DNA of 29,432 bases, taken from positions 1 to 29,432 of the IMG/VR virus record IMGVR_UViG_3300030118_003786; one strand, given 5' to 3'. Below the pieces are notes generated by a model. That model was given only the letters and a program-made list of their open reading frames with translations. It made no database searches and was not told where the DNA came from. This DNA is from a virus. How positions within the stretch are numbered: the stretch's first letter is position 1; each line of letters opens with the position of its first letter. The position numbers and the translations under genes were made by a program. This document shows positions 20,576 to 23,715 of this stretch, in pieces.

Positions 20576-20602
20576 TAAATACATACACAGGAGAAACATA
20601 TT

Positions 20603-21034
20603 ATGGGTTGGGCAAATGCATCAAATGTAACAACAACACACTTAGACAGTGACTCAGATTCACCAACATCAGCTAGAGTAGAACTTAAACTAGCATTAGA
20701 CGAATTAACCAATGTAATCAATGGATTGAACACAGCCAGTGGTGCATGTGGATTAGATGTAAATGGATTGGTTGCAAATTCAAGATTACCAGCTACACTT
20801 ACAACAACAGGAACCAACAATTTAATATTAGATCCAAACACTTCAATGGTAAAGATACAAAACTTTATCAATTTGGCTCCAGTGGCATATGCAAACTTGC
20901 CAACAACACCAGCACAAGGTGATGTGGCATTTTTAACCACAGATGGTGCGGGTGCAACCAAAAACAAATTGTGTTACTACAATGGCAGTGCTTGGAAATA
21001 TTTCAACGATGATTCTACAGTGGCGGCTTCATAG
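20603..21034 (+). CDS. Small tail fibre protein (143 aa)
   Basis: A separate Shine-Dalgarno (acaggagaaac) precedes the ATG after a 27-bp gap. The N-terminal helix SARVELKLALDELTNVINGL is followed by a short beta stalk (DVNGLVANSRLPATLTTTGT, NLILDPNTSMVKI) and a terminal module (AYANLPTTPAQGDVAFLTTD, ending LCYYNGSAWKYFNDDST) of the kind found at the tips of phage fibres. It could be a trimeric fibre tip or a chaperone-like end piece for the neighbouring fibres. Confidence 0.75.
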   Translation: MGWANASNVTTTHLDSDSDSPTSARVELKLALDELTNVINGLNTASGACGLDVNGLVANSRLPATLTTTGTNNLILDPNTSMVKIQNFINLAPVAYANLPTTPAQGDVAFLTTDGAGATKNKLCYYNGSAWKYFNDDSTVAAS

Positions 21035-21043
21035 GATAGGACA

Positions 21044-21262
21044 ATGAACAAAAAAGAACAAGAAAGATTGACACAGGTAGAATTAGATACTAAATCAATC
21101 TCAACAGATGTTCGCCTTATCCAAAAAGACATACACACAATCAGAGACAATCATTTGTCGCATTTAGCAGAGGATGTAAAAAAATTAGATATGAGACTAT
21201 GGGCAATACTATTGTTGCTGGTAGCATCATTGTTTATACCCTTCGTTAAATCATTATGGTAA
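21044..21262 (+). CDS. Small coiled-coil membrane protein, holin candidate (72 aa)
   Basis: A charged N-terminal coiled coil (residues 1-48) is followed by one transmembrane segment LWAILLLLVASLFIPFV (52-68). This single-span, helix-first design is like XhlA-type hemolysin/holin proteins that sit in the inner membrane and help lysis. It is the only multi-residue hydrophobic protein of normal size in the window, but no endolysin gene is recognised nearby, so the lysis role is unproven. It could also be a membrane-anchored virion or exclusion protein. It overlaps the next gene by 7 bp. Confidence 0.72.
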   Translation: MNKKEQERLTQVELDTKSISTDVRLIQKDIHTIRDNHLSHLAEDVKKLDMRLWAILLLLVASLFIPFVKSLW

Positions 21263-21471
21263 AACTTGATCCCAAAAGAATGTCAGATGAAGATAGACTC
21301 AAATATCTGCACAAAGAATTTGAAGAACTAAACATCAAAAAAATAAGATTCCAGCAAGACAAAGTTCGTGATCCCGAAGATATTGCATTCTATTTGAAGT
21401 GTAATCAACACCATATCGAAGTGATTAGACAACACATACACCAACTACAGCAAAAACTCAACAAACACTAA
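21256..21471 (+). CDS. Hypothetical helical protein (71 aa)
   Basis: Not recognised. Its ATG at 21256 overlaps the holin candidate by 7 bp. The product begins MVKLDPKRMSDEDRLKYLHK and is almost wholly charged helix, with one Cys and several His near the end (CNQHHIEVIRQHIHQLQQKL). A coiled-coil partner of the preceding membrane protein is an attractive inference from the overlap. It is the last gene before a terminator, closing the rightward transcript that starts with terminase. Confidence 0.75.
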   Translation: MVKLDPKRMSDEDRLKYLHKEFEELNIKKIRFQQDKVRDPEDIAFYLKCNQHHIEVIRQHIHQLQQKLNKH

Positions 21472-21476
21472 CACAC

Positions 21477-21508
21477 GGTGCTTAAAATAGGACTAAGACA
21501 CCATTTTT
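21477..21508 (+). terminator. Intrinsic terminator after the head/tail operon
   Basis: GGTGCTTA (21477-21484) pairs with TAAG-A-CACC (21494-21502), eight pairs with one bulged A, around a 9-nt loop, and is followed by ATTTTT (21503-21508). It lies 5 bp after the stop of the 21256 gene. The next 140 bases to 21649 hold no gene I would support, only an isolated extended -10-like TGTTATAAT at 21547-21555. Confidence 0.72.
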
Positions 21509-21649
21509 ACGACTGTATAGCCAAAAATAAACCCCCTAACACCACTTGTTATAATGCTAGAGGGTCTACTATGCGATATAAGAGTAATAACAATTTATGT
21601 TACCACATACATATTTATTATATGTTCATTGTTGATGCAAAGTCAACCA

Positions 21650-22258
21650 TTATAATGCCACTTCGCGAACTTTTGGTTGATGTGTGATTGTGTTGGTTTG
21701 TGTGCCAAGTTCAATCAATGCTTTGTCAAGATGTTCTCTGATTTGCAGTTTTAGTTTGTCATCATAACTAGGATCATTGTATATCCAATGACAGTATTCT
21801 TTTATCCAACTGTGTGTTTTTTCTAATGCATGTTCAGTAGCCCAATATGGCTCCATGTATTTTGGTATTGGTGATCCTACAGCCCATTTGTCTGAATTTT
21901 GTTTTCTCACAGTCCAATATTGGGGTGGATAAAATCCAACATCATCCATCATGTGTTGTGCGGTGTAGTTGCCCACACCATGTCCTCGTTTGATTGGGTG
22001 TTGTGAAAGTTCTTTTGTGTAATACACAGACTTTGATATTTTTAGTTGTGTTTGATAATCTTTCAAAAGATTTAATGCTTTGTGTATCACATAACCACAA
22101 TCTTGTCTGCCACTAATAATTTTCTTTACTTTGTATTTGCCTGTGTAAGGGTCTAAAGTGTTGATTGTGAGTTTTTCTGGAACACAGTATTGTGTTGCAC
22201 CGTGTTTGTGTAAGGCTTCACGATATTCGCCTAGTTGATATTGTTGTATTTGTATCAT
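21650..22258 (-). CDS. Hypothetical protein (202 aa), the only leftward gene
   Basis: Not recognised. This is the sole supported minus-strand gene. A consensus promoter (22307-22336) and the Shine-Dalgarno aaggaga, 7 nt before the ATG, support it. The product begins MIQIQQYQLGEYREALHKHG, with a basic, beta-rich first third (KLTINTLDPYTGKYKVKKII), a middle HPIKRGHGVGNYTAQHMMDD with several His, and a helical C-terminus (LKLQIREHLDKALIEL). No helix-turn-helix, membrane segment or hydrolase signature stands out. A morphogenesis-independent 'moron' gene, a regulator or an unusual lysis enzyme are all possible. It faces the terminator at 21477. Confidence 0.82.
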   Translation of the reverse strand: MIQIQQYQLGEYREALHKHGATQYCVPEKLTINTLDPYTGKYKVKKIISGRQDCGYVIHKALNLLKDYQTQLKISKSVYYTKELSQHPIKRGHGVGNYTAQHMMDDVGFYPPQYWTVRKQNSDKWAVGSPIPKYMEPYWATEHALEKTHSWIKEYCHWIYNDPSYDDKLKLQIREHLDKALIELGTQTNTITHQPKVREVAL

Positions 22259-22306
22259 GGTAACTTCTCCTTGTTGTTTTCATATTACTTCCTATATCAT
22301 CAGTTT

Positions 22307-22336
22307 ATTATAACAAATTAAACACAGTTTTGTCAA
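22307..22336 (-). promoter_or_regulatory. Leftward consensus promoter TTGACA-N18-TATAAT
   Basis: On the minus strand TTGACA (22336-22331) and TATAAT (22312-22307) are separated by 18 bp, both perfect. It lies about 50 bp upstream of the leftward gene's start codon. It is the only clear promoter for that gene, so the gene can be expressed independently of all the virion genes. Confidence 0.87.
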
Positions 22337-22346
22337 CAATTAAAAT

Positions 22347-22414
22347 GGAAGAGTGTGATATCAGTTAAAGGAAAGATACAATATGCCATTGTAAAGGTAG
22401 AATCACACTCTTCC
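22347..22414. other. 12-bp perfect inverted repeat / long hairpin
   Basis: GGAAGAGTGTGA (22347-22358) is the exact reverse complement of TCACACTCTTCC (22403-22414), with 44 bases between. Inside, TACAAT...ATTGTA forms a second, 6-bp stem around ATGCC. It lies in the 284-base gap between the leftward gene and the 22543 gene. No T-run follows either arm, so it is not a simple terminator. It may be a small RNA, a DNA cruciform or a protein-binding site pair. Confidence 0.75.
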
Positions 22415-22424
22415 TAAAAGGGAC

Positions 22425-22507
22425 AATACTATGTCTATATCGTCAATAGTATTTATTAAATACATCAAAATTACCCAATATATCGGTGTTTTTTGACTGA
22501 TTTTGAT
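22425..22507. repeat. Two further inverted repeats in the divergent intergenic region
   Basis: AATACTAT (22425-22432) pairs with ATAGTATT (22446-22453) around 13 bases. ATCAAAAT (22464-22471) pairs with ATTTTGAT (22500-22507) around 28 bases. Together with the 12-bp repeat to the left, they make three nested-free inverted repeats in about 160 bases of non-coding, AT-rich DNA. This could be an operator region or replication origin. Confidence 0.6.
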
Positions 22508-22542
22508 ATATATTATTACACAACAACAATAAAGAGGTGAAT

Positions 22543-22746
22543 ATGCAGAGTTGGAACAGAAGAACACAGCAAAAAATTGAAAGAATGGCACATGAAGCCC
22601 CAGAAAAACTAATATGGGTCTACAAAAAATTTGAACATTCAGAATATGACAACTATCGTTTGTATAGACAGATTCCTCGTGAAAATTATGGTAATATTAG
22701 AAGAGGAGGATGGATCCGCCATATTCCAGTTGACAAAAAATCGTAA
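22543..22746 (+). CDS. Hypothetical protein (67 aa)
   Basis: Not recognised. The ATG at 22543 follows gaggtg (a Shine-Dalgarno at 5 nt); a GTG at 22537 is the other possible start but would leave no room for a site. The product is basic and aromatic, beginning MQSWNRRTQQKIERMAHEAP, later YDNYRLYRQIPRENYGNIRR. No membrane segment or known domain is seen. The -35 box of the next promoter (TTGACA at 22730) lies within its last codons. It sits alone between inverted repeats and the structured non-coding block. Confidence 0.65.
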   Translation: MQSWNRRTQQKIERMAHEAPEKLIWVYKKFEHSEYDNYRLYRQIPRENYGNIRRGGWIRHIPVDKKS

Positions 22747-22759
22747 TGTTGTGTATAAT
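22730..22759 (+). promoter_or_regulatory. Consensus promoter TTGACA-N18-TATAAT ahead of the non-coding block
   Basis: Perfect -35 (22730-22735) and -10 (22754-22759) boxes with an 18-bp spacer. Transcription would start near 22766, right at the beginning of 440 bases without a supported gene but with many stems. The -35 overlaps the end of the 22543 gene. Confidence 0.85.
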
Positions 22760-22765
22760 AATGAA

Positions 22766-23168
22766 ACAATATGTCTTTATAAGAATTTTAGGAGTTACAC
22801 ACCCTCTATAATTGTGTAGGATTGACAATCCCCAACTGTTAGGCTAGGACAGTATAAACAAATGGGCAGTGATGCTAACACATTTTGGAAACTTTTGTGT
22901 GTTAGGTCTAACAAACTATAACTTTAAGTTGGGCTACAAGAGGGCTTGTTTGTTGGATGGAAGTAGTCACCCTTAATATATTAAGGTAGGTTAGATATGC
23001 AAACCCTTAACCGTAATTGATGCTGTTCTTGTTCTTGAGAGGACTTTTTACTAAAAGTTCTCTGTTGGGCGAACAAAAAGCAAATACATTCACTGTTGTT
23101 CCATAATGATCTTTATGAGAAAAGAAAAAAGTTATACGAAGTATTAACCATATGCCTTTAGGCATATG
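22766..23168 (+). ncRNA. Candidate structured non-coding RNA (or replication element)
   Basis: This stretch of about 400 bases has no convincing gene on either strand. It begins at the predicted start point of a consensus promoter. Stems in order: TACACA/TGTGTA (22796-22801 with 22813-22818); GGATT/AATCC (22819-22823 with 22827-22831); a closing stem CCCAACT/AGTTGGG (22831-22837 with 22927-22933) that encloses CTAACACA/TGTGTTAG (22875-22882 with 22898-22905); GGCTAC/GTAGTC (22932-22937 with 22963-22968, one G-T); the 16-bp palindrome 22971-22986; an 11-bp stem with a 4-base loop (23038-23048 with 23053-23063, one G-T); and CATATGCC/GGCATATG (23149-23156 with 23161-23168). No known RNA family is recognised. 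Confidence 0.55.
22971..22986. repeat. Perfect 16-bp palindrome CCTTAATATATTAAGG
   Basis: The sequence equals its own reverse complement over all 16 bases. Such a loopless palindrome is more natural as a dimeric protein-binding site on DNA than as an RNA hairpin. It sits inside the structured non-coding block, and the half-site cccttaa recurs near 23004. Confidence 0.85.
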
Positions 23169-23204
23169 CCTTACTGGAACTAATAAATAACATTGACAGA
23201 GAAG

Positions 23205-23675
23205 ATGGCAGATTTGGTTCCAGACAAAGATCAATATCTCTATGACAGTTGGTTATTCCATACACAAGTGACTGTGCCTAAGAATTACATCAAGAAATGT
23301 TGGATTTGGCAAGGGCCTATGCATGTGAATGGATATGGCAGAATATCAGTGAGAGGGCAAAGATGGTATGCCCACAGGTTATCATGGCATATACATCATC
23401 GCCAAGACATACCCAAAGGGCAAGTGATAAGACACATGTGCAATCAACCACAGTGTGTGAATCCATATCATCTCAAATTGGGCACACAGCGACAGAATGT
23501 GATGGACATGCATCTGGCAGGTAGGCAGGGATATGTGAGAAAACTCAACCCTAAACAGATATCCGAGATATTGCACAGTGATCTAACACAGTCTGCTTTG
23601 GCAAAAAAATACCAGGTTTCTAAAACAACTATCCATCGCATACTTAACATAAAGCGACAGCATAAATACAAATGA
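23205..23675 (+). CDS. HNH endonuclease with C-terminal helix-turn-helix (free-standing homing type)
   Basis: A 156-residue protein of the HNH_3 type: CWIWQGP at 32-38, GYGRI at 43-47, AHRLSW at 56-61, then the catalytic region IRHMCNQPQCVNPYHLKLGT with H77, N86 and H89 and structural Cys 79/84, followed by QNVMDMHLAGRQG. Residues about 112-150 (LNPKQISEILHSDLTQSALA then KKYQVSKTTIHRIL) form a helix-turn-helix for DNA binding. Such enzymes nick or cut DNA and often spread as selfish genes next to, or in place of, phage genes. The ATG at 23205 has a weak site; a TTG at 23193 is also possible. It follows the structured non-coding block and precedes the fibre genes. Confidence 0.9.
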   Translation: MADLVPDKDQYLYDSWLFHTQVTVPKNYIKKCWIWQGPMHVNGYGRISVRGQRWYAHRLSWHIHHRQDIPKGQVIRHMCNQPQCVNPYHLKLGTQRQNVMDMHLAGRQGYVRKLNPKQISEILHSDLTQSALAKKYQVSKTTIHRILNIKRQHKYK

Positions 23676-23689
23676 TATATCAAACAAAA

Positions 23690-23703
23690 CTTATTCGAAT
23701 AAG
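23690..23703 (+). promoter_or_regulatory. 14-bp palindrome overlapping a ribosome-binding site
   Basis: CTTATTCGAATAAG is a perfect palindrome whose right arm runs into the Shine-Dalgarno AAGGAG (23701-23706) of the 23716 gene. A stem of about 5 bp with a TCGA loop could weakly mask the site or recruit a dimeric DNA-binding protein. Confidence 0.45.
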
Positions 23704-23715
23704 GAGAAAATTTAA

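Follow-up and report, generated by a model that had tools for sequence, protein, structure and literature searches.

The packaging RNA of phage phi29 is a small structured phage RNA. Only a few large stand-alone RNAs of phages are on record, and what they do is unknown. GOLLD and ROOL, for example, are stand-alone, structured, and pseudoknotted RNAs of phages and prophages, with unknown function (PMC12286853). The marine structured RNAs manA, wcaG, and PhotoRC-II come from environmental and phage DNA, and are reported from likely 5' UTRs or in association with particular genes (PMC2864571).

The locus described here lies in a phage sequence of 29,432 nt, called the window (record IMGVR_UViG_3300030118_003786, positions 1 to 29,432). 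An earlier note on this DNA reported a perfect TTGACA-N18-TATAAT promoter ahead of a structured block without any supported gene, and suggested, among other options, an undescribed phage RNA. The promoter does match the consensus at 12/12 positions, and is one of two 12/12 sigma-70 sites in total within the scanned part of the window (1-26000). The block also proved free of supported genes: no Pfam or PHROG family backs a gene inside it, and a six-frame check of 20 homologues revealed no frame open throughout (the longest stop-free runs were 19-62 codons over ~340 nt). The main features are as follows.

22730-22759, + strand: sigma-70 consensus promoter, with TTGACA at 22730-22735, an 18-nt spacer, and TATAAT at 22754-22759; predicted start near 22766
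22766-23168, + strand: RNA gene, proposed from homology in 29 other contigs, covariation, and a leave-one-out covariance model; predicted transcript of ~400 nt, both ends being predicted
23205-23675, + strand: HNH homing-type endonuclease of 156 aa with a C-terminal HTH (HNH_3, 2e-8; PHROG endonucleases)

Folding energy does not single out the block as a whole (z = -1.8, with 6/100 shuffles equally good), and the energies of local windows are mostly unremarkable. Rfam 15, searched at the gathering score with the window and 11 other members of the family described below, gave no match. The case for an RNA was, therefore, built by comparison. Thermodynamics by itself is insufficient to reveal this structured RNA, while comparative evidence does reveal it.

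Several ways of finding relatives were unproductive. Blastn of the block against 50,697 phage records returned chance matches only, the HNH, 202-aa, and 67-aa neighbours used as probes found no relatives in a close-relative search of viral contigs, and a 20-mer probe (AAGTTGGGCTACAAGAGGGC) had no matches. The gp80-like flanking gene, used as a protein query, yielded 11 loci, and comparing the block with the whole records of these loci gave one real homologue (E 7e-28, with 72% identity across 229 query nt). The two sequences share an uninterrupted match of 24 bases, which suggested the search pattern AGATATGCAAACCCTT; its 46 matches included 18 loci carrying the RNA element. Searching with a second pattern, taken elsewhere in the RNA, gave 11 further loci. 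Homologues are, in total, present in 29 IMG/VR phage contigs besides the window, a count inflated by near-identical copies and drawn from records that may be partial. Once near-identical copies were removed, 20 distinct members, the window included, were aligned. A covariance model built from the 19 other members matches the window at 226.9 bits over 22791-23067 (leave-one-out; the calibration was short and its E-value is rough), and each of the 17 records with a full-length match holds a single copy. In 84,980 prokaryote species genomes, the second pattern had three matches, none of them family-like by sequence or by model search. The nearest cultured relatives by portal protein include the Pelagibacter (SAR11) phages HTVC026P, 111P, 112P, and 202P, as well as phage DSL-LC06, and no copy of the RNA was found in these five. 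The label 'marine' is based on this relation to Pelagibacter phages.

Across the 20 members, nine helices, including one long-range pseudoknot, are kept by compensatory change. With the hand-written fold, 87.4% of the alignment cells pair; sliding the partners by 1 to 3 columns lowers this to 33-45%, and shuffling to 72%. Covariation scores are 0.432 for the fold, 0.08-0.12 for the slid controls, and 0.175 for the shuffled ones. Compensatory base changes in related phages, one of the checks proposed in the earlier note, are thus plentiful, with double-sided changes at 32/46 pairs. RNAalifold, run independently, recovers helices H1, A, B, C, D, and E. As modelled from this alignment, the family fold has two pseudoknots and about ten helices. 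Several of its unpaired segments are nearly invariant: GGAAGT, the joining strand of 21 nt, the AGATATGCAAACCC loop, and CTAAAAG. Its parts in the window, from 5' to 3', are listed below.

22791-22807, + strand: 5' H-type pseudoknot, leader GGAG (22791-22794) with the H1-loop CTCT (22804-22807)
22797-22817, + strand: hairpin H1, ACACA (22797-22801) with TGTGT (22813-22817); 94% of cells paired, 3/5 pairs double-changed
22820-22830, + strand: hairpin H2, GATT/AATC, the weakest helix; double-sided changes at 3/4 pairs by RNAalifold
22835-22853, + strand: hairpin A, ACTGT/ACAGT, with the conserved loop TAGGCTAGG; 100% of cells paired
22854-22874, + strand: joining strand ATAAACAAATGGGCAGTGATG, a constant 21 nt, highly conserved
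22875-22905, + strand: hairpin B, CTAACACA (22875-22882) with TGTGTTAG (22898-22905); paired in 20/20
22907-22957, + strand: helix C, core AACAAAC (22910-22916) with GTTTGTT (22948-22954); ~98% paired, 6/7 pairs double-changed
22920-22930 and 22931-22947, + strand: hairpins C1 and C2, enclosed by helix C
22936-23032, + strand: long-range pseudoknot, C2 loop ACAAGA (22936-22941) with TCTTGT (23027-23032), ~90 nt downstream
22959-22964, + strand: GGAAGT, invariant in the alignment
22969-22987, + strand: hairpin D, paired in 20/20 with five sequences; often a GNRA tetraloop in other members
22989-23012, + strand: helix E, GGTT/AACC, closing the conserved loop AGATATGCAAACCCTT (22993-23008); 4/4 pairs double-changed, 95% paired
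23038-23063, + strand: hairpin F, 11 bp with loop TACT; its 3' arm starts with AAAAG, and CTAAAAG is invariant in the alignment
23149-23168, + strand: terminal hairpin CATATGCC-TTTA-GGCATATG, with arms CATACGCC/GGCGTGTG in member L077; a hairpin stands there in nearly all members

Compensation is readily seen in individual helices. Hairpin A occurs as ACTGT, ACCGT, ACAGT, and CTTGT, all compensated, and the 6-bp stem of B as CTAACA, CTGACA, CTTGTT, CAGAAC, TGATGC, and CTGATC, each with a matching partner; the register of H2 is uncertain in several members. The long-range pseudoknot, for which a cross-pairing control was run, has 6/7 pairs double-changed, with variants such as GGTTCAC/GTGAACC, GGTCCAC/GTGGACC, GCACAC/GTGTGC, and ACAACG/CGTTGT. 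The 5' pseudoknot came to light by hand, in a comparison of the leader with the H1 loop. All 20 own pairings (20/20) form its 3-bp core, versus 70/178 swaps between members with differing leader cores, and its variants include AGAG/CTCT, AAAG/CTTT, AGCG/CGCT, and TGAG/CTCA.

Two of the stems previously pointed out, the 11-bp one at 23038-23063 and the 8-bp one at 23149-23168, are present and keep their position in relatives. The 7-bp stem once proposed to close a multi-branch interior (22831-22837/22927-22933) is complementary in the window but lies outside the conserved fold, being broken in relatives and clashing with two covarying hairpins. An additional helix from the covarying column pairs 212-214/273-275 was also dropped, as these columns follow clades and form no clean helix.

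A DNA-level element, such as a replication origin, a packaging site, or a cruciform, is an alternative explanation. In the counted helices outside the pseudoknot, 20 wobble cells are G-U and 4 are A-C (a raw count that ignores the kinship of the sequences), which favours a folded RNA of one strand, the + strand, rather than a DNA site. The folded molecule thus appears to be the + strand, the same strand as that of the 22730-22759 promoter. The DNA alternative draws on what lies upstream. One to three AGGCA boxes precede the RNA in 18/20 members (0.05-0.3 would be expected per 125 nt), ~30-70 nt upstream and often ~10 and 20-21 bp apart, a phasing seen in many of the 18 box-bearing members, and on this explanation the boxes would be iterons; in addition, the tail gene module ends close to the element. 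Nevertheless, the window and L077 keep the RNA without AGGCA boxes, the orientation relative to late genes varies, and the compensatory changes, which span two pseudoknots and about ten helices and favour G-U over A-C, speak against a DNA site. This explanation is unlikely. Conversely, none of the 19 other members has a consensus sigma-70 promoter at the place it occupies in the window. We infer that control normally lies with the AGGCA boxes, which the window phage has exchanged for a host-type promoter. Other paired boxes at the member loci are few and chance-like.

The genomic neighbourhood is far less conserved than the RNA. The gene families flanking it differ between members, none being common to all. 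Downstream, the nearest long gene is oriented towards the RNA in at least eight distinct members (e.g., L034, L055, L070, and L075) and away from it in others. The lack of a shared neighbour and the frequent facing orientation of the next long gene argue for a stand-alone transcript. A cis-acting leader or attenuator of the next gene, which in the window would be the HNH gene, was weighed against this. The HNH gene starts shortly past the terminal hairpin in the window and in L077, no separate promoter is seen between the two in the window, and L043, L087, L079, and L081 have a small protein gene next on the same strand. No clear T run was found at the 3' end of the RNA in the window, so the transcript could extend into the HNH gene there. 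A cis-regulatory leader should sit beside a single type of gene and share its strand. Here, what follows the RNA varies in both identity and orientation: no single family occupies the downstream position, and in at least eight other members the next long gene is directed towards the RNA. A leader is, for these reasons, improbable.

The suggested tie to the HNH gene stands for part of the family. In the window and in L077, L078, and L084, which are its closest relatives, an HNH gene occupies the same place downstream of the RNA (53% protein identity between the window and L077), but most other members have none beside the RNA. In L087, a related HNH gene lies upstream of the RNA, on the other strand. 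The link is local, and would suit a homing gene that settled beside a conserved element. The RNA might instead be a guide or scaffold for the HNH protein encoded next to it, or the RNA and the HNH gene might move together as a homing unit. This reading would fit the recurrence of one HNH family in the window and L077 and, upstream, in L087. It fits poorly with the majority of members that lack the gene, with the lack of HEARO/IscB RNA or group I/II intron matches at permissive Rfam thresholds, and with a 156-aa homing-type protein that is not IscB, and is, therefore, very unlikely.

Some other observations concern the surrounding insert. In gp80 relatives, the preceding structural gene usually ends at most ~50 bp from gp80, while in the window ~3.1 kb (20576-23715) separate a 248-aa gene from gp80. 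The RNA lies inside this interval, together with several small genes, a minus-strand gene, and the HNH gene. A minus-strand sigma-70 site at 22336-22307 (12/12) suits the 202-aa minus-strand gene at 22258-21650. Upstream of this site, a 13-bp perfect inverted repeat (GGAAGAGTGTGAT / ATCACACTCTTCC, 42 nt apart) spans 22347-22414, and the minus-strand fold of 22300-22449 has a z of -6.9; the repeat could represent a terminator or a further structured element, and an Rfam search of the repeat region gave no meaningful match. Two more hairpin-forming repeats (22425-22516) lie in the 280-nt gap upstream of a 67-aa ORF. Just past the 202-aa gene lies another minus-strand sigma-70 site (21646-21617, 11/12), and roughly 80 nt beyond it a hairpin that resembles a terminator, complete with T run; a short RNA may be made there. 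Small proteins of ~90-110 aa are found beside the RNA in L043, L048, L087, L079, L081, and L075, several of them cysteine-rich, and only weakly alike; they are candidate partners of the RNA. One conserved small protein as the partner was rejected, the similarity being weak and restricted to a subset.

Taken together, the comparison outlines a family of predicted RNAs with one copy per phage record, a conserved + strand fold, and changing neighbours. The best explanation as a whole, to which a probability of roughly 0.55 is given, is a stand-alone RNA gene with its own promoter, whose product would act in trans with a protein partner. A control region of its own is supported by the consensus promoter of the window and by the phased AGGCA boxes in 18/20 members, and action in trans by the absence of a downstream gene common to the members. 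Conserved unpaired segments, no fixed target gene, and a single copy per phage point to an RNA that acts in trans and is probably bound to protein, and the near-invariant loops suggest a specific partner. Host RNA polymerase would transcribe the RNA from the sigma-70 consensus promoter, probably early, giving a transcript of roughly 400 nt that would end near the terminal hairpin. Its action in trans would consist in offering the invariant loops to a protein of the host or the phage, as an RNA-protein particle, a scaffold, or a decoy used during infection. A bolder proposal, advanced tentatively, is a new class of phage RNA, marked by its two pseudoknots and by phased AGGCA boxes in its control region, whose role would be unlike that of any known phage RNA; it might, for instance, capture an RNA-protein machine of the host early in infection.

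How does this RNA compare with those already described? Judged against open-licence papers, the ~400-nt folded RNA probably represents a kind of phage RNA not described before, and the idea of such an RNA raised in the earlier note is strongly supported by the compensatory changes in relatives and by the lack of an Rfam match. A divergent form of a known large RNA, missed by the Rfam models, would account for a stand-alone, pseudoknotted, and phage-borne RNA resembling GOLLD and ROOL (PMC12286853). Against this, permissive Rfam searches (E up to 3-5) with the window and three members gave no GOLLD, ROOL, tmRNA, RNase P, or 6S match, ARAGORN found no tRNA or tmRNA in the window or 18 member loci, and the length of ~400 nt contrasts with the more than 800 nt of many GOLLD RNAs; such a divergent form is, accordingly, quite unlikely. 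A tmRNA, with its tRNA-like domain and tag frame, finds no support in the ARAGORN and Rfam results, both negative, and a group I or II intron was rejected, no intron-core model matching the window at E up to 5. HEARO, the omega-RNA of IscB, is likewise a structured RNA upstream of an HNH gene, as in the window, but the RNA described here has no Rfam match, and its HNH neighbour is a 156-aa HNH_3 homing-type protein, not IscB, and absent beside most members. The RNAs manA, wcaG, and PhotoRC-II are in Rfam and linked to genes, whereas the window RNA is unmatched and apparently stand-alone. Unlike the phi29 packaging RNA, it has no Rfam match and is not beside a terminase gene.

GOLLD and ROOL share with the window RNA a stand-alone, structured, pseudoknotted, and phage-borne character (PMC12286853), and are the nearest kind by way of working. 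They differ from it in sequence and covariance model, in their frequent location near tRNA islands, and in that the present family was not found in the prokaryote genomes scanned by pattern; the tests run do not support its membership in either. With compensatory changes above those of the controls, it does belong with structured non-coding RNAs in general. To these, it adds a compact family with a clear fold, for which homologues, a covariance model, and exact helices are available for testing.
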